In this document: positions 3,429-19,363 of the stretch, one piece after another
How the letters are laid out: each line of letters begins with the position of its first letter
How positions within the stretch are numbered: the first letter of the stretch is position 1
Program-made: the position numbers and the translations under genes
The notes under the pieces: model-generated
The model's input: the letters and a program-made list of their open reading frames with translations, nothing else
Told to the model about the DNA's origin: nothing
Database searches by the model: none
Source of the DNA: an uncultured Collinsella sp.
GTDB taxonomy: Bacteria > Actinomycetota > Coriobacteriia > Coriobacteriales > Coriobacteriaceae
Length of the DNA: 22,098 nt
Assembly: GCA_900551655.1 (NCBI GenBank)
Contig: URWM01000003.1
Coordinates: forward strand, 1 to 22,098
Direction: 5' to 3'

Positions 3429-4157
3429 CTACTCGCAGAGCGAAAGGGCGGCCTCGTCGGCAACGACAACGCAGTTGGTGTGCAGCTGCAGGATCGAAGC
3501 CGGGCACGCGGGCGTAACCGGACCATAGCACATGTCATGCACGGCCTGAGCCTTGGCCTCGCCGTTGGCGACGACCAGGATCATGCGGGCATACATGATG
3601 GTCTGGGTACCCATGGTGTAGGCCTGACGGGGAACATCGTCGATGCTGTCGAACAGGCGGCTGTTGGCCTGAATGGTGCTCTCGGTGAGGTCGACGCAGT
3701 GCGTGCCCTTGGAGAAGTGGTCATCGGGCTCGTTGAAGCCGATGTGGCCGTTGTTGCCAATGCCGAGCAGCTGCAGATCCGGGTAACCGGCGGCGGCGAC
3801 GATCTTGTCGTACTCAGAGCAGGCAGCGGCGGCGTCGGGGTTGGAACCGTCGGGCACATGCGTGTTGTTCAGGTCGATGTTGATGTGGTCGAAGAAGTTC
3901 TCACGCATGAAGTAGTGATAGCTCTGGGGATCGTCGTGCGAAAGGCCGCGATACTCGTCCAGGTTGTAGGTGCTGACCTCGGCAAAGTCGACGTCGCCCT
4001 TCTCGTACCAAGCAGCGAGCTGCTTGTAGGCACCGATCGGGGTGGAGCCGGTGGCAAGGCCCAGCACACAGTCGGGCTTGAGGATAACCTGCGCCGAGAT
4101 GATATTGGCGGCCTTGCGGCTCATATCCTCGTAGTCTTTAGCTTTAATGATTTTCAT
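3429..4157 (-). CDS. nagB: Glucosamine-6-phosphate deaminase
   Basis: This cytosolic enzyme converts glucosamine-6-phosphate to fructose-6-phosphate and ammonia, feeding amino sugars into glycolysis. I chose ATG 4157 (MKIIKAKDYEDM), which has AAAGGA upstream and gives 242 residues, the length of the Bacillus-type enzyme; the in-frame codon at 4235 has no ribosome site and adds unconserved residues. The sequence shows the phosphate loop LATGSTP (34-40), the catalytic NLDEYRGL (D67) and GIGNNGHIGFNEP (132-144) with H138 and E143. N136 stands where E. coli has D141, as in other Gram-positive enzymes. GlmM, acting in the opposite (anabolic) amino-sugar direction, and a sugar PTS EIIA lie next to it. 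The 5' region up to 4300 is rich in hairpins, for example GGCCGCA/TGCGGCC near 4223-4245. Confidence 0.97.
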   Translation of the reverse strand: MKIIKAKDYEDMSRKAANIISAQVILKPDCVLGLATGSTPIGAYKQLAAWYEKGDVDFAEVSTYNLDEYRGLSHDDPQSYHYFMRENFFDHINIDLNNTHVPDGSNPDAAAACSEYDKIVAAAGYPDLQLLGIGNNGHIGFNEPDDHFSKGTHCVDLTESTIQANSRLFDSIDDVPRQAYTMGTQTIMYARMILVVANGEAKAQAVHDMCYGPVTPACPASILQLHTNCVVVADEAALSLCE

Positions 4158-10975: not shown

Positions 10976-11491
10976 TTAGCGGGACACCCGCCCACCACGT
11001 TCGGCCAAAGCCAGAATCGGCATCATTTGGCGCGGGGTCTTTGCTGCAAGATCGGCATGTTCGAGCAGCTTTCGATCGTTTGTCACCAAGTAATCGACCT
11101 GCGCGCGCTTGCACGCGGCGAGCACCAGGTTGTCCTCGTAATCGCGATGGAGCACTAAGTATTTGTCGGCCAGCCAAAGGTCCGACGCATCTGCACCCAC
11201 GGCCGTGGCGTTTTCGGTCATATTCCGAACAAACGCCAGCGCAGCGTCGCCAATTGCATGGGCAGATGCCTCGCCGAGCGCTCCCCCGCTGGCAATAACG
11301 CTACGCTTCAGCTCGTGTTGGACAACGTACAGTACGTCATTAGCGATATGCACCGGGAAGAACAGCGACGCCCCCGTCTCCGTCGCCTGCCCAATAAACG
11401 CACGCGCGGCAAGCGACTCGGCATGGTCGACGCAAAACGAATCAACCCATACGTTGGCATCCACCATTATTTTGAGGAAAGCCCCGCTCAC
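10976..11491 (-). CDS. PIN-domain ribonuclease toxin (VapC-like)
   Basis: A 171-residue PIN-domain protein, expected to be a metal-dependent RNase that cuts tRNA or other RNA when freed from its antitoxin. The acidic residues of the fold are visible: D11 in KIMVDANVWVDSF, D120 in RDYEDNLVLAACK, and D139 in DYLVTNDRKLL. The start GTG 11491 overlaps the antitoxin stop by four bases (GTGA), so translation is coupled; an internal ATG nine codons into the gene (MVDANVW) is an alternative start. It is longer than a typical VapC (about 130-140), mainly through the region 60-100. The neighbouring antitoxin makes a toxin-antitoxin role very likely. Confidence 0.87.
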   Translation of the reverse strand: MSGAFLKIMVDANVWVDSFCVDHAESLAARAFIGQATETGASLFFPVHIANDVLYVVQHELKRSVIASGGALGEASAHAIGDAALAFVRNMTENATAVGADASDLWLADKYLVLHRDYEDNLVLAACKRAQVDYLVTNDRKLLEHADLAAKTPRQMMPILALAERGGRVSR

Positions 11492-11841
11492 AGGATCATC
11501 CCCTTTTGGCGATAGCGCTCATCCATTGCTTCGGAATAGATTGTGTCCCAATCGCGATCGTCGGATACGGGCGACGTAGCGATGCCCAGGTCCGCGTAAA
11601 GCTGATCCGCCGCCGCCCATGATGCGACGAACGGAGTATCGGGCGCGACGGCCTGCTTGCGGTCGTCGACGGCCGCAAGCACTTCCTCGCACTGCCCGCC
11701 ACCCTGCGCGACCTTGGCCACCACCTTTTTGATGAGCTCGGGCAGTGACCCGCCCGAAAGCCGCAGCACCTCCTCGGCACGGTTCTTGACCTGGCGATCA
11801 ACGCGAACATTCACCTGCGCCATACTGCTAACAGCACTCAT
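11488..11841 (-). CDS. RelB/DinJ-like antitoxin of the PIN toxin
   Basis: A 117-residue protein whose N-terminus (MAQVNVRVDRQVKNRAEEVLRLSGGSLPELIKKVV, residues 7-41) fits the ribbon-helix-helix DNA-binding domain of RelB/DinJ antitoxins. The rest is acidic and probably disordered, as expected for the toxin-wrapping tail. I chose ATG 11841 because AAGGTGGGG precedes it and because the predicted transcript start (about 11875) lies downstream of the longer GTG start at 11880. The domain should repress its own promoter. Pairing of a RelB/DinJ-type antitoxin with a PIN toxin is seen in nature but is a mixed combination relative to VapB-VapC. Confidence 0.82.
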   Translation of the reverse strand: MSAVSSMAQVNVRVDRQVKNRAEEVLRLSGGSLPELIKKVVAKVAQGGGQCEEVLAAVDDRKQAVAPDTPFVASWAAADQLYADLGIATSPVSDDRDWDTIYSEAMDERYRQKGMIL

Positions 11842-11881
11842 CTCAACCCCACCTTCTACTTCTGCTAACCAAGCTATCACA

Positions 11882-11978: not shown

Positions 11979-14054
11979 CTAGCGCAGATATGCCTTCGCG
12001 TTGCCCAAGCTATACGCAATCGTCGAACCGTTGTGCAGCAGCGACGATGTCTGCGGGGCGATCGTGCCGGTAATACCCAATGCCAGCAGCGCCGAGTTGG
12101 TGAGCATGACCTTGGCATACGAGCTCGTCAGACGGTCGATGAGGCCCTGACTCATGCGGCGCAGGCGCACGATCGCGGCGAGATCCGTGTCGGCCAGGAT
12201 GATGTCGGCGACCTCCTTGGCAATGTCGCTTCCGCCGCCCATGGCCAGCCCCACGTCGGCCAAACCGAGCGCTGGCGAATCGTTGACACCATCGCCCACC
12301 ATGGCAACATGGCGCCCCTCGCTCTTAATGCGCTCCACATAGGCGTACTTGTCCTCGGGCAGCAGTTCGGCCTTAAACTCGTCGACGCCCGCCTCGCGCG
12401 CAATGCGCTCGGCCGTGCGCTCCGAATCGCCCGTGAGCATAACGACATGCTTGACGCCCAGCGCATGCAGGTCGGCGATGGCCTCACGGACCCCGGGCTT
12501 GAGCGGATCCTCGATGCCAAGCACGCCCACAACGGTGCCGTCGACCGCCAGATACAGCGGCGACAGGCCCTGCACCTGGGACTCGATCTGCTCCTTGATG
12601 TCGGACTCGAGCTGCGCACCCTCGTCCTCAAATACAAAGTGCGCTGAACCGATGATTGCGCGACGCCCTTCGATGGACGAAGCGATGCCGTGTGCCACGA
12701 TGTACTCGACGGCGGCGTGGCGCTCGCGATGCTCGAGCTCGTGCTCGCGTGCCGCATTGACCACGGCGCGTGCCACTGGATGCGGGAAATGCTCCTCTAA
12801 GCAGGCGGAAAGGCGCAGAACCTCGTCCTCGCTCCAGCCATCGGTCGTCAGCACGCAAGCCAGGCGCGGCTGCGCCTCAGTGAGCGTGCCGGTCTTATCA
12901 AAGACAATGGTATCGGCCTTGGCAAACGACTCAAAGTACTTGGCGCCCTTGACCATCACGCCCATCTTGGCAGCATCGCTCATAGCGGTCATGACGGCAA
13001 CGGAACCCGTGAGCTTGAGTGCGCACGAGTAGTCGACCATCAGCGCCGCCGAGGTCTTAATGAGGCTACGCGTGGTGAGAGCGACAAGGCCCGCGAGCAG
13101 GAAGTTCCACGGGACGATCTTGTTGGCGAGGTCTTCCATGTGCGACTGGCCCTCGGACTTGAGCGAGTCGGCCGCCTGCACGAGCGAGACGATCGAGCGC
13201 AGCTTGGTCTGAGCCGTGTTGGCGCGCACGCGCACCAAGATGCTGCCGTCCTCGACGACAGTTCCAGCAAACACATCGTCGCCTGCGCTGCGCTCGACGG
13301 CAAGCGGCTCGCCGGTCAGGGTCGCCTGGTTAACCATGGCGCTCCCCTGCTCAACCACGCCGTCGATGCAGATGGACATGCCGGTGCGAACGGCGACCAA
13401 GTCGCCGGGCTCAAGCTCGGTGGCGGCAACGCTCACCTCGGTGTCACCGACCACTTTTTGTGCCTTATCGGGCACATCGAGCAGCGAGTTGATGAGCTCG
13501 TTTTCGCTCATGGCGCGGGTGTAGTCCTCGAGCAGCTCGCCCACATTGAGCAGGAACATCGTCTGCCCCGCGGTATCGACATCACGCTTGACGAACGAAA
13601 TGCCGATGGCCGAAGCGTCGAGCACGGGAACGGTCAGGCGCGGCTGCGAGAGCTCGTGGAGAGCGGCGCGCAAAAAGGTCATGTAACCGGCCACGACAAA
13701 CACCGCACGCAGAGGCGTCGGCAAGAACCAGCGGCGTGCGTAATGGGCGCCGATGAGTGTCGCCAGGTCCATAACGAGTTTGTGCTTGCGCGGCTCGAGT
13801 TGCATCACGTAACCCGACTTGGCATCGGCGATGGCTTGAGCATCGAGTGCGCCCAAGGCGTCGAGCACGCTCGCACGACACTGCTCGTCATATTCGAGCG
13901 CCATCTGGCCAATACGGCCATATACGCGCACTTTGCGCACGCCGTCGATTTCGCCGCCAAGCTTAAGAAGTGCATCGAGATCGCTCTCTGGCACAGGACC
14001 CGCCAATTGAAGACGGGTCCTGCCGGGGATCTCGCTAATAATCGAGAATCTCAT
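11979..14054 (-). CDS. P1B-type heavy-metal-translocating ATPase, non-canonical SCAL motif
   Basis: A 691-residue membrane pump. Visible motifs: actuator loop TLTGEP (246-250), phosphorylation site DKTGT with D386, the P1B-specific HP pair (H425-P426), TGDS (541-544), hinge GDGVNDSP (587-594), and C-terminal STIAYSLGN. In place of the usual CPC in the sixth membrane helix it has YSCALK (342-347), so the transported metal cannot be read from the motif. Residues 1-75 look like a ferredoxin-fold HMA-like domain (IPGRTRLQL) without CxxC, so it probably does not bind metal as a chaperone target does. It follows the DUF6110-like gene by 18 bases with a weak ribosome site. Transition-metal export in homeostasis is the likely job (inference). 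Confidence 0.92.
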   Translation of the reverse strand: MRFSIISEIPGRTRLQLAGPVPESDLDALLKLGGEIDGVRKVRVYGRIGQMALEYDEQCRASVLDALGALDAQAIADAKSGYVMQLEPRKHKLVMDLATLIGAHYARRWFLPTPLRAVFVVAGYMTFLRAALHELSQPRLTVPVLDASAIGISFVKRDVDTAGQTMFLLNVGELLEDYTRAMSENELINSLLDVPDKAQKVVGDTEVSVAATELEPGDLVAVRTGMSICIDGVVEQGSAMVNQATLTGEPLAVERSAGDDVFAGTVVEDGSILVRVRANTAQTKLRSIVSLVQAADSLKSEGQSHMEDLANKIVPWNFLLAGLVALTTRSLIKTSAALMVDYSCALKLTGSVAVMTAMSDAAKMGVMVKGAKYFESFAKADTIVFDKTGTLTEAQPRLACVLTTDGWSEDEVLRLSACLEEHFPHPVARAVVNAAREHELEHRERHAAVEYIVAHGIASSIEGRRAIIGSAHFVFEDEGAQLESDIKEQIESQVQGLSPLYLAVDGTVVGVLGIEDPLKPGVREAIADLHALGVKHVVMLTGDSERTAERIAREAGVDEFKAELLPEDKYAYVERIKSEGRHVAMVGDGVNDSPALGLADVGLAMGGGSDIAKEVADIILADTDLAAIVRLRRMSQGLIDRLTSSYAKVMLTNSALLALGITGTIAPQTSSLLHNGSTIAYSLGNAKAYLR

Positions 14055-14072: not shown

Positions 14073-14318
14073 TTACTCGGCTGCCTCGTCAGCAGCGGCC
14101 TCGCTCTGGGTGATGTAGGCAGCCTCGGCAACCATGTCGTCGACATTAGCCTTGGCCTGCTCGACCATGTCCTGGTAGCAGTTCTTGACGCGCATACCGC
14201 ACGCGATGCCCTGCACGCAGGCATTCTTTACCGGAGCGCTGGTGAGCAGTTTGATGCCGGCCGTGCCAAGCAGAAAACCGCCACCGACAAGCAGGGTATT
14301 GAACGTCGACTTCTTCAT
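14073..14318 (-). CDS. DUF6110-like small membrane-anchored protein
   Basis: An 81-residue protein starting at ATG 14318 after GGGAG (the longer in-frame start at 14378 has no ribosome site and runs through the hairpin leader). It has one hydrophobic, glycine-rich segment near the N-terminus (TFNTLLVGGGFLLGTAGIKLL), then SAPVKNACVQGIACGMRVKNCYQDMVEQAKANVDD and an acidic tail. The GGxLLGTAGIKLL...K..Y/C...A..LR.K pattern matches DUF6110 as I remember it, a family found next to HMA-domain P-type ATPases. Three cysteines lie in the middle (CVQGIACGMRVKNC), a possible metal site. Role unknown: it may aid folding or metal delivery to the pump. Confidence 0.78.
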   Translation of the reverse strand: MKKSTFNTLLVGGGFLLGTAGIKLLTSAPVKNACVQGIACGMRVKNCYQDMVEQAKANVDDMVAEAAYITQSEAAADEAAE

Positions 14319-14387: not shown

Positions 14388-14426
14388 AGCACGCTTTTGA
14401 AATATCTCAATTTTATCTAACTATCT

Positions 14427-14446
14427 AGGTCAGCCATGGCTAACCT
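14427..14446. promoter_or_regulatory. Palindromic operator copy upstream of the DUF6110/ATPase operon
   Basis: AGGTCAGCCATGGCTAACCT is a 20-base palindrome with one mismatched pair. It shares 13 contiguous bases (AGCCATGGCTAAC) with the site at 18152-18169. It lies about 110 bases upstream of the DUF6110-like start, next to AT-rich sequence (TAGATAGTTAGATAAAAT on the minus strand) that could hold the -10 box. The outer AGGTTAG/CTAACCT halves recall DtxR/IdeR half-sites but with a longer centre; this likeness is only suggestive. Confidence 0.6.
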
Positions 14447-14479
14447 TTTGAAAATTAACGATGCGGAGTAACCGATTGT

Positions 14480-14506
14480 CAATGTGACAAAGGGACTGTC
14501 CCTTTG
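14480..14506. repeat. Dispersed palindromic repeat, partial copy
   Basis: These 27 bases are identical to 19246-19272. The core CAAAGGGAC-T-GTCCCTTTG is palindromic. In this copy the right arm diverges after CTTTG. It lies 8 bases past the stop of the second ABC gene, so it may act as its terminator hairpin although no U-run is present. Confidence 0.7.
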
Positions 14507-14513
14507 CCCCTTC

Positions 14514-16271
14514 TTACAACTGCCAGGTAGCTGCTTCCTTTTGCAGCGCCACCATGCGGGCGAATTCTCCACCTGCCGCCTTGAGCTGCGCCGGAGTGCC
14601 CTGCTCGGCAACCACACCATCCTTAAGCACAACGATTTTGTCGGCATTTTCCACCGTACGCATACGGTGGGCAATAACGATAACCGTCTTACCTGTAAGC
14701 AGACGGGAGAGCGCCTGCTGTACCACGGTCTCGTTCTCCACGTCCAAGCTCGCCGTCGCCTCGTCCAACAGCACGATGGGCGCATCTTTGAGCAGCGCGC
14801 GAGCGATGGAGATGCGCTGGCGCTCGCCGCCGGAGAGTTTGGAGCCGTTCTCACCGATCATGGTGTCGTAGCCCTGCGACATGCGGCTCACAAACTCGTC
14901 GCAGTTGGCGGCACGCGCGGCCGCAAGCACTTCCTCATCGGTGGCATCACGACGCCCGAGGCGGATGTTTCCCATCACCGTGTCGTCAAAGAGCAGCACG
15001 TCTTGGAACACGATGGCGTAATCACGCAGCAGTACCTCGGGATCAACGCTCGCAACATCCACACCGCCCACGGTAACCTTGCCCGCGGTGGCATCCCAAA
15101 AGCGCGCGGCCAGGCGGCTCACCGTAGACTTACCGGAACCCGAAGGACCGACCAGCGCCGTAACTTCGCCTTCCTTGGCGGTAAAGCTCACATCGGTAAG
15201 AACTTTCTCGCCGGCGCGGCCGTCCTCGCCCGCACCATAGCCAAATGCCACGTGATCGAACACCACATCGTGGCCCGCGGGCTCAAATTTCTCGCTGCCC
15301 CGCGCCACAGGCTCTTCCATGATGGAACGCATGCGCTTGGCAGACGACTCGGCGGCAAACAGCTCGGACATTAACATTAACGCCTGGTCAAAGGGAGCAT
15401 AGATACGGCTCACCATAAGCAGGAAGGCAAACATCACCAAAAAGTCGACCTGCCCGGAGGCGACCACCGCGGCGCCCGTAACCAGCGTGGTGGCAATGCC
15501 CAGACGCAGGATGACAAAAGCAGAGTTGACCAAAAGCCCGTTAGCGAGCTCGCCCTTGGTGGTCTCGCGCTCCTCGGCATCGATCACGGCGTTGAGTCCC
15601 TCAAGATAATGGGCCTCCTGGTTGGTGGCGCGGATCTCGCGAACGCAGTCGAGCGTCTCTTGAATTGCCTCGGTAACCTTGACCTTCTCGGCACGCACGC
15701 GATCGAACACCGGAGTCATGGGGCCGCGTGTTAGATACAGCACGGCAAAGGCAACGGGAACGCTCCAAAACGCCGCGATCGCCAGCTGCCAGCAAAAGAA
15801 CAGCGACGCCACGAACACAATGGCGCTTGCGATGATGGCACCCCAAAGCTCTCCCAGCACGTGGCTGTAGGCGTGCTCCATGGCCTGGACGTCGCCCATG
15901 ATGGTCTCGGTTAAATCGGCCAGATCACGACGACCAAAAAACGACAGCGGCAGTTTGCGCAAGCGCTCGGCGATCTCCATACGCTGCTTGCCGCACTCCT
16001 CGTAGAAGATGCAGTAGGTGTAGTAATACTGCTGCCAGTTAGAGGCAAAGAGCAACACGAAAAAGACCAGGAGGCCGCCCACGATCGGCAGCGCATCCGG
16101 CAGGTCGGCCCCGCTGGCGAGATGCTCGACAAAGCCGGCCATGACCAGGAATAAAAAGCCCATGCCGGCCATGGTAATGAGATTGGTGAGCGTGGTCCAG
16201 AAAATGCCGCGTTTTACTCCGGCGACGCCTTTATCGGATAGGAAATACTTCTTTTGGAACGAGGCGAACAT
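14514..16271 (-). CDS. ABC transporter half, permease-ATPase fusion (second of a pair)
   Basis: A 585-residue half-transporter of the exporter fold: about six membrane helices in residues 20-300 and an ATPase domain from about 335. The ATPase has Walker A GPSGSGKST (375-383), Q-loop VFQD (421-424), signature LSGGE (479-483), Walker B IVLLDE (499-504) and H-loop H535; all catalytic residues are present. Its ATG follows the stop of the first half directly (TAAATG), so the two are translated together and most likely form a heterodimer. With an AraC regulator alongside, the arrangement recalls YbtP/YbtQ and IrtA/IrtB siderophore importers, which share this fold; drug or peptide export is the alternative. 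No binding protein gene is present. Confidence 0.93.
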   Translation of the reverse strand: MFASFQKKYFLSDKGVAGVKRGIFWTTLTNLITMAGMGFLFLVMAGFVEHLASGADLPDALPIVGGLLVFFVLLFASNWQQYYYTYCIFYEECGKQRMEIAERLRKLPLSFFGRRDLADLTETIMGDVQAMEHAYSHVLGELWGAIIASAIVFVASLFFCWQLAIAAFWSVPVAFAVLYLTRGPMTPVFDRVRAEKVKVTEAIQETLDCVREIRATNQEAHYLEGLNAVIDAEERETTKGELANGLLVNSAFVILRLGIATTLVTGAAVVASGQVDFLVMFAFLLMVSRIYAPFDQALMLMSELFAAESSAKRMRSIMEEPVARGSEKFEPAGHDVVFDHVAFGYGAGEDGRAGEKVLTDVSFTAKEGEVTALVGPSGSGKSTVSRLAARFWDATAGKVTVGGVDVASVDPEVLLRDYAIVFQDVLLFDDTVMGNIRLGRRDATDEEVLAAARAANCDEFVSRMSQGYDTMIGENGSKLSGGERQRISIARALLKDAPIVLLDEATASLDVENETVVQQALSRLLTGKTVIVIAHRMRTVENADKIVVLKDGVVAEQGTPAQLKAAGGEFARMVALQKEAATWQL

Positions 16272-18098
16272 TTAGGCCTCGCCTCCCTTCGTGACGGCGG
16301 CATCCGCGGTCGCTGCAGTGATTTTCCAGCTCGCGGCCTGTTCGTATTCGGCCCACATCTTGGCATACAGGCCCTCTTGGGACAGCAGCTCGGCATGGGT
16401 GCCAGCCTCCTGCACGCTGCCCTGGTTGAGCACCGCGATTTGGTCTGCGCCCACTACAGTCGAGAGTCGGTGCGCAATCATAATGACCGTGCGACCCGCC
16501 GCCAGCTTGCTAAAGGCGCGCTGGATGAGTGCCTCGTTCTCGGGATCGGCAAACGCCGTGGCCTCATCGAGCACCACGATAGGCGCGTCTTTAAGGATCG
16601 CGCGGGCGAGTGCCACGCGCTGGACCTCGCCGCCCGAAAGATATGCTCCGCCGGCACCGAGCATGGTATTGATGCCCTGTGGGAGCTTGGCCACAATGTC
16701 GTCGCACTGAGCTGCGGAGAGGGCCGCACGCACTTCGTCGTCAGTGGCCGTAGGCTTGGAGGCGCGCACGTTATCGGCAAGTGTTTGCCGGAACAGCTGG
16801 TTGGTCTGGAACACGAAGGCGACCTGGTCCATAAGCTCGTGCGGATCCATATCGCGAACGTCCACACCGCCTACGAGCACTCGACCCGAGGAAACATCCC
16901 AAAAACGCGGGATCAGGCTTGCGCAGGTTGACTTACCGCCACCCGAGGGACCCACCAGGGCGAGGGTGCTACCAGCGGGAACGCTAAAGCTCACATGATC
17001 GACGGCAGGCGCTTCGGCACCCTCGTAGGTAAAGCTCACGTCCTCAAAGCGCACATCGCTGCCAGCAGGGTGCTTGGGCTGGGCAGGCACGGAGAGCTGC
17101 TTGGAATCCATAACGCTTCGGATGCGCGCCAGCGAATCGGCACTCATCTGAGAGGCCTCGCCCACAAACATGAGCTTGGTCATGGCCGTCGGCACCACGG
17201 CCGAAAACATCGCGTAAAACGTGAAGTTGGCCATAAAATGCGCGAAGTCCGTCTCGCCCGGCGCCAACAGCAACGCCACGGGCAACAGGAATGTCACAAG
17301 ACCATTGAGCGCGGCAAGGTTGAGTACCTGCGGACCTCGGCAAAACGTGCCCGCATAGCTTTGTGCCATGTCGGCGTATTCGGCGATCGCGTCGTGGAAC
17401 GCCTTAAAGGAATAGACCGTCTGCTGAAACACCTTGACCACGGGAATGCCGCGTACGTATTCGGTACCGGTCTTGTTCATCTTGACCAGCGCGCCCATGT
17501 AGGCCTTCATGAACTCGGCGCCCTTGCCGCTCATCATGGTGGCCATGGCGCCAAGCGAAACGGCGACCGAGATAAGGCATGCCGCGCCCAAGCGCCAATC
17601 GAGGGCGAAAAGCAGCACGAGCAGACCTGCGACCATGGCGGTGGCGCCGGCGATATCGGGTAGCATGTGCGCGAGCAGGGTCTCGGTGGAGGCGGCGCAT
17701 CCGTCTACGATACGGCGCAGCTCACCGGTGGCGTGTGTGTCAAAGTAGCCAAGCGGCAGCTTAAGCAGGTGCTCGCTCGTAGTCTTGCGAATATTGGACG
17801 CGCAGCGAAACGCAGACAGGTGCGTGCACATGAGCCCCACGAAATAGACCACGATGCTTGCCAGCGCAAACCCCACGGCCCACCAGCCATACGTCGCGAT
17901 GCCGCAGGCTTCGCTCCAGTTAGGCGCCACGGCGATCAGATCGCGCGCGACAAGCCAAATGCACACGAACGGGCCAAAGCTCAGCAGCTGCGAGAGCGCC
18001 GAGAGAGCCATGCCCAAATACGTTAGGAATTTGCGGTCGCCGGCATATGCAAGCAGCTCGCCGATACCGCCGCCTTCCCTTTTTGACCCCTTTGCCAT
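16272..18098 (-). CDS. ABC transporter half, permease-ATPase fusion (first of a pair)
   Basis: A 608-residue exporter-fold half-transporter. I chose ATG 18098 (MAKGSKREGGG), which follows AGAAAGGA; the ATG at 18161 has no ribosome site and lies inside the operator. Membrane helices span roughly 35-310. The ATPase domain has Walker A GPSGGGKST (383-391), Q-loop VFQT (429-432), signature LSGGE (487-491), Walker B IVVLDE (507-512) and H543. The residues after Walker B are ATAFAD rather than the usual ATASLD, a small departure at the D-loop that also occurs in YbtP/Q-type proteins as I recall. It is the promoter-proximal gene of the operon and is divergent from the AraC-family regulator. Confidence 0.93.
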   Translation of the reverse strand: MAKGSKREGGGIGELLAYAGDRKFLTYLGMALSALSQLLSFGPFVCIWLVARDLIAVAPNWSEACGIATYGWWAVGFALASIVVYFVGLMCTHLSAFRCASNIRKTTSEHLLKLPLGYFDTHATGELRRIVDGCAASTETLLAHMLPDIAGATAMVAGLLVLLFALDWRLGAACLISVAVSLGAMATMMSGKGAEFMKAYMGALVKMNKTGTEYVRGIPVVKVFQQTVYSFKAFHDAIAEYADMAQSYAGTFCRGPQVLNLAALNGLVTFLLPVALLLAPGETDFAHFMANFTFYAMFSAVVPTAMTKLMFVGEASQMSADSLARIRSVMDSKQLSVPAQPKHPAGSDVRFEDVSFTYEGAEAPAVDHVSFSVPAGSTLALVGPSGGGKSTCASLIPRFWDVSSGRVLVGGVDVRDMDPHELMDQVAFVFQTNQLFRQTLADNVRASKPTATDDEVRAALSAAQCDDIVAKLPQGINTMLGAGGAYLSGGEVQRVALARAILKDAPIVVLDEATAFADPENEALIQRAFSKLAAGRTVIMIAHRLSTVVGADQIAVLNQGSVQEAGTHAELLSQEGLYAKMWAEYEQAASWKITAATADAAVTKGGEA

Positions 18099-18117
18099 GA
18101 GATTCCTTTCTAACGGC

Positions 18118-18146
18118 TTGAGAGTTAACCGTAATGAACTTATCAT
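18118..18146 (+). promoter_or_regulatory. Promoter of the AraC-family gene
   Basis: TTGAGA (18118-18123), a 17-base spacer and TATCAT (18141-18146), each five of six to consensus. The expected transcript start, about 18153, falls at the edge of the palindrome 18152-18169. The -10 box overlaps that of the opposing ABC promoter. Confidence 0.75.
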
Positions 18147-18170
18147 TGATGTGTTAGCCATGGCTCACAA
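18142..18170 (-). promoter_or_regulatory. Promoter of the ABC operon
   Basis: On the minus strand TTGTGA (18165-18170), a 17-base spacer and AATGAT (18142-18147), each four of six to consensus. The spacer is largely the palindrome, so a protein bound there would block RNA polymerase. The 5' leader would be about 35-40 bases to ATG 18098. Confidence 0.6.
18152..18169. promoter_or_regulatory. Palindromic operator between divergent promoters
   Basis: TGTTAGCCATGGCTCACA is an 18-base palindrome with one mismatched pair. It covers the -35/-10 spacer of the ABC promoter and the start site of the AraC-gene promoter, so one bound regulator could control both. Read on the minus strand it shares AGCCATGGCTAAC with 14432-14444. 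Confidence 0.65.
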
Positions 18171-18212
18171 TCGAGCCAGGCGTGGACGTTTCTGCAAAGG
18201 AAAGGGACGCTT

Positions 18213-19217
18213 TTGCAAATACGGCGGGCAGCGACCGACATAACCGAGCTCTACGCACCGCAGTTTGAGCAGTTTGGCCTGGAGCTTACCGGCAAGGGCG
18301 CCGTCTTTACCGGCGAGGTGGCAAACGATCGGGCGCACGGACGCGCATGGATCATGCCCCTCTCCCCTGCCTGCATCGTCATGGAGCATTACATTACCCC
18401 GACGCACGATATGTACCTGGCCGAATACACACCCGAACCGTACGCATGCGTGAGCGAGGTCAGCGCGCCCACGCTCATGTGCATGCCCGAAGCCGGCATA
18501 ACGCCTGCGAACCTTAAACCCCTGCATGGACCGTGGCCAAACAATGCCGTGTGCAGCTTTATCCAAGATAACTGTGGCGAGGAGTTAAGCCCACTGTTTG
18601 CAGGGCGGCTCTATCACTCGCGCTCGGTGCTCTTTTTGCCCGGGTATTTTGACGAGCTGGAGCATCGGTATCCCACTGAGTTCGTGGGAGTCTTTGAAGC
18701 GTTTGCCGAGTCGTGGCACGAGGAGGCGACGTCTGCCATCTGCCACACGCTGCGCCGGATTAACGAGGACCGCGCCCGCACCGTAGGCGGACACGTCTAT
18801 ATGCAAGGCATCGTGGAGACCATGGTCGCGGAGCTCGCCTGTTCGCGCGCGGCCCACAAGCAGGCGCGGCGGGCGGCAGACACACGCGCCAGCATAACCA
18901 TTGCCGAAGAAGCAACGGCAATGATTGAGCGCGCGCTCGACAAAGGCAGACGTGTGGGTATCAACGAGGTAGCCGAGAGGCTCTACACAAGCCGCTCCAA
19001 GCTATGCGCCACCTTTAAGGCCCAAACTGGCGAGTCCCTGGGCGCCTACATCCGCAGACGCCGTATGGAGCGAGCACAGGACCTTTTGGCCGATAGCGCG
19101 CTCACGATAGCGCAGGTTGCAGAGCGTCTAGGCTACCCTCAGCAGGCCGCCTTCGCCCAAGCCTTCAAGCAACACACCGGCACCACCCCCACCACCTGGC
19201 GCTCCCAACATCAATAA
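18213..19217 (+). CDS. AraC-family transcriptional regulator
   Basis: A 334-residue regulator. The start is TTG 18213 with AAAGGGA about five bases upstream; no better in-frame start is seen. The C-terminal AraC/XylS domain has both helix-turn-helix units: INEVAERLYTSRSKLCATFKAQTG (about 250-273) and LTIAQVAERLGYPQQAAFAQAFKQHTGTTPTTWR (about 297-330), the latter with the family's GY...F..AFK...G..P..WR pattern. The N-terminal 200 residues would sense a ligand and contain several cysteines (C54, C79, C90, C114, C121), no obvious motif. It is divergent from two ABC half-transporter genes, as YbtA is from ybtPQ, so it likely activates or represses them. The ligand is unknown. Confidence 0.92.
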   Translation: MQIRRAATDITELYAPQFEQFGLELTGKGAVFTGEVANDRAHGRAWIMPLSPACIVMEHYITPTHDMYLAEYTPEPYACVSEVSAPTLMCMPEAGITPANLKPLHGPWPNNAVCSFIQDNCGEELSPLFAGRLYHSRSVLFLPGYFDELEHRYPTEFVGVFEAFAESWHEEATSAICHTLRRINEDRARTVGGHVYMQGIVETMVAELACSRAAHKQARRAADTRASITIAEEATAMIERALDKGRRVGINEVAERLYTSRSKLCATFKAQTGESLGAYIRRRRMERAQDLLADSALTIAQVAERLGYPQQAAFAQAFKQHTGTTPTTWRSQHQ

Positions 19218-19245
19218 GGGGAGGGCAAAGGAACAGGCGCATGCC

Positions 19246-19279
19246 CAATGTGACAAAGGGACTGTCCCTTTGTCACATT
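19246..19279. repeat. Dispersed palindromic repeat, full copy
   Basis: Bases 19247-19279 form a perfect palindrome with 16-base arms (AATGTGACAAAGGGAC, centre T, and its complement). It starts 29 bases past the AraC-family stop and may be its terminator, although no U-run follows. The first 27 bases recur at 14480-14506. Confidence 0.8.
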
Positions 19280-19363
19280 CACCTGACCCGAACGGCCGAG
19301 TCGTCTGGCCGGGGAAGCCCCGAGTCGCCGGGGTGCTTGCTCAAAATGAGTTCCGCACGCAAA

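Follow-up and report, generated by a model that had tools for sequence, protein, structure and literature searches.

A 16-bp dyad shared by two operons of a gut Collinsella marks a probable DtxR-family iron regulon

Main finding

The window, by which we mean the whole analysed stretch of 22,098 nt from an uncultured Collinsella sp., carries two copies of a 16-bp dyad, one before a DUF6110/P1B-type ATPase operon and one before an ABC transporter operon. Boxes of the same kind recur before iron transport genes and dtxR genes in Collinsella and its relatives. In our estimate (a probability of roughly 0.8), both boxes are operators of an autoregulated, MntR-sized (about 120–150 aa) DtxR-family metalloregulator that most likely senses iron, and the two operons would belong to a general iron-starvation regulon.

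DtxR-family iron regulons are well known. What appears to be new here, judging from the sequences, is the half-site spacing, the MntR-sized regulator, the inclusion of a P1B6/DUF6110 pair and the distribution over two phyla. Among the papers listed by our literature searches, we recognised none that describes the box, or any regulon of the DtxR type for Collinsella or Lachnospiraceae. Both groups are frequent inhabitants of the gut. A readable box yields lists of candidate targets for them (ferrous import, haem/siderophore import, ferrosome-like genes, DUF3793, DUF2325) together with a candidate regulator, and it connects the P1B6/DUF6110 pair, of which little is understood, with iron starvation.

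Two operators of one kind in the window

A search of the window locates AGGTCAGCCATGGCTAACCT at 14427–14446. The 13-mer AGCCATGGCTAAC occurs on both strands, at 14432–14444 (+) and 18153–18165 (−). An earlier, sequence-only reading of this DNA had noticed the pair; both copies exist, the second one base away from the 18154–18166 given there. Its judgement that such a repeat is unlikely by chance is borne out: with up to two mismatches, AGCCATGGCTAAC has five matches in the window (two pairs being both strands of one dyad), compared to a mean of 0.41 in 100 shuffles of the window, none of which reached five. It had further described one mismatch in each palindrome, equally far from the centre, and indeed the symmetry of both 16-mers, 14429–14444 and 18153–18168, is broken at positions 3 and 14 only. 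The common unit is the 16-bp dyad GTTARCC-NN-GGYTAAC. A 20-mer, as proposed before, was rejected as the unit, its 20-bp form AGGTNAGCCATGGCTNACCT being present once only and not common to both sites. The following sites were annotated:

14429..14444, minus strand: operator 1, 16-bp dyad GTTAGCCATGGCTGAC, 110 nt before the DUF6110 start
18153..18168, minus strand: operator 2, GTGAGCCATGGCTAAC, in the spacer that separates ABC1 from the divergent araC, 54 nt ahead of the ABC1 start
18124..18139, minus strand: possible weaker copy, GTTCATTACGGTTAAC, sharing the ABC/araC spacer with operator 2 at a distance of 29 bp
18118..18146, plus strand: promoter-like TTGAGA-N17-TATCAT directed towards araC; the weaker copy overlaps it, and it ends a short way upstream of operator 2

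A sequence related to the weaker copy is found 25 nt before the start in 14/14 close ABC1 orthologs. The promoter-like site is weak, one such site being found in the stretch where 1.2 are expected by chance.

For an independent ranking, a weight matrix was derived from 33 sites in feoAB and dtxR1 promoters of relatives, none of them taken from the window or its two operons. This matrix places 18153–18168 first (20.2 bits) and 14429–14444 second (19.3 bits) in the window, while 100 simulated sequences of window length reached a best score of 18.7 and a median of maxima of 11.1; the weaker copy ranks third with 15.1 bits. A second matrix, built from 17 feo sites (feo-only), again puts operators 1 and 2 on top (20.3 bits each), followed by 18124–18139 (14.2 bits). 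That both sites are one kind of operator standing before the two operons, as had been suggested, is thus upheld by a matrix that owes nothing to these operons.

Because the training sites of the matrices had been selected for resemblance to the consensus, a model-free count of all gapped four-base palindromes was run over 35 upstream regions and compared with 60 shuffled sets. GTTA-N8-TAAC came out on top with a count of 8 over the 35 regions (best count in the shuffled sets: mean 2.9, maximum 6). It was top in the ABC set too (5/8), and not top in the dtxR1, feoAB or DUF6110 sets taken singly.

Genes of the two operons

The two operators precede the following genes:

11979..14054, minus strand: ATPase of the P1B type, P1B6-like in its HN close to the C-terminal end, its SCA within the TM4 region and its N-terminal GRxR
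14073..14318, minus strand: DUF6110 protein, 81 aa (Pfam DUF6110, E=4e-10; related to PacL (DUF1490), with DUF1490 below cut-off)
14514..16271, minus strand: ABC2 half-transporter, YbtQ-like by structure-database sequence matches
16272..18098, minus strand: ABC1 half-transporter, YbtP/IrtA-like by structure-database sequence matches
18213..19217, plus strand: AraC-family regulator, divergent from ABC1

The start of ABC1 was set at 18098 and not at 18161 because of the presumed ribosome site AGAAAGGA; with the start behind AGAAAGGAATCTC, operator 2 would lie upstream and off the start codon. Concerning the transporter, the best bacterial structure match of ABC1 is chain A of the YbtPQ entry 6p6i (6e-99), followed by IrtA, and that of ABC2 is chain B of the same entry (2e-82), although eukaryotic ABCB proteins outscore the YbtPQ chains for both by sequence. 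The window pair is thus related in sequence to both YbtPQ half-transporters, in good agreement with its earlier description as YbtPQ/IrtAB-like. The AraC neighbour is a further likeness to these systems. Unlike them, the window has no siderophore synthesis genes that we could recognise, and the importer role is predicted from sequence.

In the window, the AraC/ABC/ABC genes lie between gatB and DUF6110 (14400–19300). gatB and DUF6110 are direct neighbours in C. aerofaciens (L031) and in the relatives L181, L184, L185, L189, L197, L198 and L203, and AraC/ABC/ABC is therefore regarded as a variable cassette.

Distribution of the box within Collinsella

The pattern GTNAGCCATGGCTNAC with at most one mismatch is found in 15/21 relatives and in 13/13 within the genus, at one to five places per Collinsella genome versus none or one for the reversed control. 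These places are a mixture of promoters (feoAB, ABC, DUF6110 and, in G009, a ZIP gene) and of start-codon coincidences (glyS). A Nramp gene is also preceded by a box (one match in G001).

When three mismatches were permitted, the matches and reversed-control matches in six genomes amounted to 16/7, 17/5, 17/8, 16/4, 11/6 and 8/9; most single matches at this threshold therefore mean little. The sequence-only reading had held that many copies inside unrelated coding genes would refute its regulon. At this threshold most of the 16 G001 matches do fall within coding genes or at their starts, glyS among them, but none of these is a conserved high-scoring promoter site. The G001 matches at glyS and at further coding genes or their starts (L017, L160, L162 and L164–L170) were discarded as coincidences of the gccATGGC start context. 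The G001 match of L161 lies 59 nt before an ORF. A match at cobW (L019) recurs in 10/13 Collinsella genomes and overlaps a possible start codon.

Across 43 Collinsella genomes, DUF6110 was matched in 34 and FeoAB in all 43. The upstream sets comprise 30 of the 34 DUF6110 matches and 30 feoAB regions, eight full-length feoAB matches being left out, and the ABC1 count excludes L234 and L236–L239 (partial or distant). A region was taken as boxed when its score exceeded the 99th percentile of its own shuffles. By this measure, the 33-site matrix detects 28/30 DUF6110 and 22/25 ABC1 regions, and the feo-only matrix 21/30 and 22/25, respectively. The feo-only matrix also detects 25/28 dtxR1 promoters, with L291, L295 and L296 as exceptions, so that in most cases the candidate repressor gene carries the box itself. 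Before feoAB, the 33-site matrix marks 23/30 regions, these regions being its training data; in 22 of the 23 the boxes are in tandem, 17 bp apart. No box was found in the remaining 7/30 feoAB regions, and G034, G045, G047 and G048 among those genomes have DtxR1, a point against DtxR1 as sole regulator. In 12/30 DUF6110 regions the best dyad is not the main site but the weaker GTTAGATAAACTAAAC at 87–88 nt.

Seven genomes of the C. aerofaciens group possess DUF6110 and no close ABC1, gatB adjoining DUF6110 in 6/7 of these loci. Boxes are still present there, strong ones at feoAB and others at dtxR1, along with the weaker dyads at DUF6110. The small regulon formerly proposed for the two window operons retains its metal-responsive look; it was drawn too narrowly, as boxes are also present at feoAB, dtxR, Nramp and ZIP genes.

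Some loci are worth recording in their own right. DUF6110 has an in-frame stop in L203 (G013), a genome in which DtxR1 was also not found. At 4037–4052 of L025 (G002), GTTAGCGATGGCTAAC is surrounded by an inverted repeat of 18 bp, perfect and with a loop of four bases, which separates an AraC-family gene from an ECF/ABC-like cluster. Boxes also occur at an AraC/ECF cluster of similar make-up in G070 (L329). L123 of G014, with a small-protein gene and a P-type-ATPase-like ORF divergent from dtxR, was considered as a DUF6110 locus and rejected: the small protein has no Pfam match, and no good box lies between the genes.

Boxes outside Collinsella

Atopobiaceae belong to the same class as Collinsella, and in L030 of this family GTTAGCCATAGTAAAC lies 15 nt before the DUF6110 gene. 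As far as the sequences tell, the box has the general form GTTARCC-NN-GGYTAAC in Collinsella and a looser form, GTTAG-N6-CTAAC, in Lachnospiraceae. The latter precedes DUF6110 in Blautia (L033, GTTAGTTAATTCTAAC at 37 nt) and Paralachnospira (L034, GTTAGAAATTTCTAAC at 275 nt). L032 has boxes, none of them before its own ATPase. Matches of GTTAG-N6-CTAAC versus reversed control are 7/1 in G052 (Blautia), 8/1 in G053 (Paralachnospira), 4/2 in G055 and 1/3 in the Atopobiaceae genome G054. In 26 genomes of the family of G053, which we take to be Lachnospiraceae, there are 132 exact matches versus 48 for the reversed control, with three genomes showing no match and four more at or below control.

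The eight sites of G053 lie at FeoB, at FeoA with a divergent dtxR, at a DUF2325 gene convergent with that dtxR, at a second dtxR (25 nt upstream), and at FecCD, ABC half-transporter, DUF6110 and DUF3793 genes. Three of the seven sites of G052 belong to FeoB, DUF6110 and a dtxR with a divergent ABC gene, and the other four to hydrolase and arabinofuranosidase genes with no clear iron link. In G058, G070 and G076, where FeoA/FeoB genes have boxes as well, 20 regions covering 30 of the 32 sites were inspected. Seven of the 20 have Feo, FecCD, NEAT or the ABC1 relative directly downstream. Nine are followed by flavodoxin, DUF3793, DUF2325, HMA, AraC/ECF, ABC or FMN-binding genes, which we take to be plausible targets, and four show no visible link. 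The ABC1 relative is that of G076 (49% identity over 86 aa at a contig end), with the box 88 nt upstream. Boxed dtxR genes were found in L315, L316, L317 and L328. A regulon private to the two window operons, as the sequence-only reading had it, is at odds with the Lachnospiraceae boxes at Feo, FecCD, NEAT and dtxR genes.

DUF3793 and DUF2325 genes are repeatedly boxed in four Lachnospiraceae-type genomes (L304, L315, L324, L328, L330, L332, L336). Roles in the iron response are therefore suggested for both families.

Proposed regulon and candidate regulator

We infer from these sequences that the box serves repression rather than activation, with a DtxR paralog as its binder and iron as the metal. 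Under sufficient iron, the repressor with its metal would occupy the box at the promoter and prevent transcription. As iron falls, it would leave the box, and three sets of products would be made: FeoAB for Fe(II) import; the YbtPQ-like importer together with AraC, through which the presence of a ligand would be checked as well; and the DUF6110/P1B6-ATPase pair, proposed here as a ferrosome-like iron store or platform.

Extended to both phyla, the proposal is that gut anaerobes among the Coriobacteriia and Lachnospiraceae may use a so far unrecognised, MntR-sized DtxR repressor and the GTTAG-N6-CTAAC box as main iron regulator in place of Fur, and that ferrosome-like genes and the YbtPQ-like importer may belong to one ancient regulon, boxes being present at related operons in both phyla. 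We lean towards this wider reading, with clearly less assurance than towards the regulon itself.

The proposed system resembles the DtxR/IdeR regulons in its DtxR-family repressor, its autoregulated appearance and its iron uptake targets, and the GTTAG/CTAAC half-site is that of the IdeR/DtxR box. The canonical DtxR/IdeR box is a 19-bp palindrome with half-sites 1 bp apart. The present box does not conform to it, its half-sites being 6 bp apart; further differences are the MntR-sized candidate regulator and the inclusion of a P1B6/DUF6110 pair.

All 21 relatives encode a DtxR-family protein with PF01325 above cut-off, and DtxR1 has both PF01325 and PF02742. Orthologs of DtxR1 (56–100% identity) occur in 28/43 Collinsella genomes, and DtxR2-like proteins in 43/43. 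The best match in the dtxR1 promoters has 3–5 mismatches of 16 in 28/28 cases, and 26/28 have two such matches. At most four mismatches are seen in 24/28 promoters versus 0.6% of shuffles; at most five occur in 4.9% of shuffles.

DtxR1 was not found in G013, G030, G049 and G050 despite strong boxes before feoAB or ABC1, and therefore DtxR2 or another protein must act there. A first alternative, which we consider possible although clearly the lesser one, is that the second paralog DtxR2 (about 147 aa) binds GTTAGCCATGGCTAAC, or that the box is common to both paralogs. DtxR1 was not found in some of the boxed genomes, while DtxR2-like proteins were matched in every one of them. Moreover, the dtxR2 promoters of C. 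aerofaciens relatives contain a dyad of the same 8-2-8 architecture as the box, which is a different, perfect one (GGTATGCC-AC-GGCATACC). Against DtxR2, no good GTTA-N8-TAAC box was found at dtxR2 in the distant L127, L128, L130 and L132 (best 7–8 mismatches), whereas dtxR1 promoters are boxed. Furthermore, the protein of the boxed Lachnospiraceae locus L313, the sole boxed dtxR protein compared, is nearer to DtxR1 (40% identity) than to DtxR2 (34%).

A perfect or near-perfect dyad, GGTATGCCACGGCATACC, lies about 35–50 nt before dtxR2 in L129 and L133–L139, and may possibly be a separate DtxR2 operator.

The ATPase/DUF6110 pair

The window ATPase has HN at 674 and is without a CPx motif, by an inferred TM numbering. 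HN and the absence of CPx are common to all six relatives compared, and SCA to five of them (L030 has TCA). Its nearest named relative among the matches listed is from C. aerofaciens, with 97% identity. According to PMC9374683, the P1B6 class is characterised by an HN motif in TM6, no CPC in TM4 and a DUF6110 partner. The window ATPase shares HN, the lack of CPx and the DUF6110 partner, and is on these sequence features assigned to the P1B6 type.

A ferrosome-like role would have a parallel in C. difficile fezAB. A review (PMC12574912) describes FezA/FezB as repressed by Fur, and FezB is termed a putative ferrous iron transporter in PMC10979944. Low-iron induction of a ferrosome-like pair therefore has a precedent. 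Both systems combine a membrane protein with a transporter, and fezAB is iron-switched (PMC12574912). They differ in that Fur regulates fezAB while a DtxR-type box is present here, and the likeness is drawn from gene descriptions.

Whatever the regulator, the pair could instead form an efflux platform for zinc or another metal, which we regard as unlikely, somewhat more so than binding by DtxR2. This alternative draws on mycobacterial PacL1-CtpC, a zinc efflux platform in which DUF1490, a relative of DUF6110, is encoded together with the ATPase (PMC9374683). The window ATPase is without the CPC motif of CtpC, and the DUF6110 box is held in common with iron import genes in both Coriobacteriia and Lachnospiraceae, a company of iron and not of zinc genes. 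In addition, an exporter induced by iron starvation would presumably make little sense. The ferrosome-like store or platform is thus the function we propose.

Manganese, Fur and AraC as alternatives

The metal is a separate question. By solved structures, DtxR1 is nearest to MntR proteins, and its predicted metal ligands are a hybrid: the DYLE motif retains the MntR-type Asp and Glu, and a Cys like that of DtxR stands where MntR has a Glu. Manganese is therefore a conceivable co-repressor. Like the MntR regulons of E. coli and B. subtilis, the present one has a regulator of that size and a Nramp target; a ZIP gene is boxed as well, and the compact dyad resembles MntR boxes. Nevertheless, an MntR regulon with manganese in place of iron seems improbable. 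Systems for Fe(II), ferric siderophores or haem (FeoAB, FecCD, NEAT, YbtPQ-like) and ferrosome-like genes make up most of the named targets, and the Cys in place of the Glu ligand points away from MntR. Iron is accordingly kept as the most likely metal.

Binding by a Fur-family protein is very improbable. A Fur-family gene is present in 13/13 Collinsella genomes, and the Fur repression of C. difficile fez (PMC12574912) would fit. One box is even found beside fur: in G002 (L153, 1607–1622), GTTAGCTTTTGCTAAC lies before a flavodoxin gene with the Fur-family gene next in line. However, 12 of the 14 Collinsella fur loci examined are without a match within three mismatches, matches being limited to L153 and one in L154, and boxes accompany dtxR genes instead. 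The box is, moreover, a GC-centred dyad and unlike Fur boxes. Flavodoxin is also boxed in G058 (L320).

Least probable by far is a local regulon close to the earlier picture, with the neighbouring AraC protein as binder of the two boxes. In its favour, operator 2 lies between the divergent araC and ABC1, and AraC genes are boxed in Lachnospiraceae too. However, the seven genomes in which a close ABC1 was searched for and not found keep their feoAB and dtxR1 boxes, which disfavours AraC as general binder, and AraC proteins usually bind direct repeats.

Further features of the window

The window starts (1–60) with CAAGCAGAAGACGGCATACGAGAT...GTCTCGTGGGCTCGG, which we take to read as an Illumina P7/Nextera adapter; a 993-aa minus-strand ORF runs into these bases. 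The first bases of the window are therefore likely a sequencing artefact.

At 10976–11880 (minus strand), a PIN-domain protein overlaps a small upstream partner without a Pfam match, and the two look like a toxin-antitoxin pair. A similar ORF pair follows the ATPase in G007 (L021).
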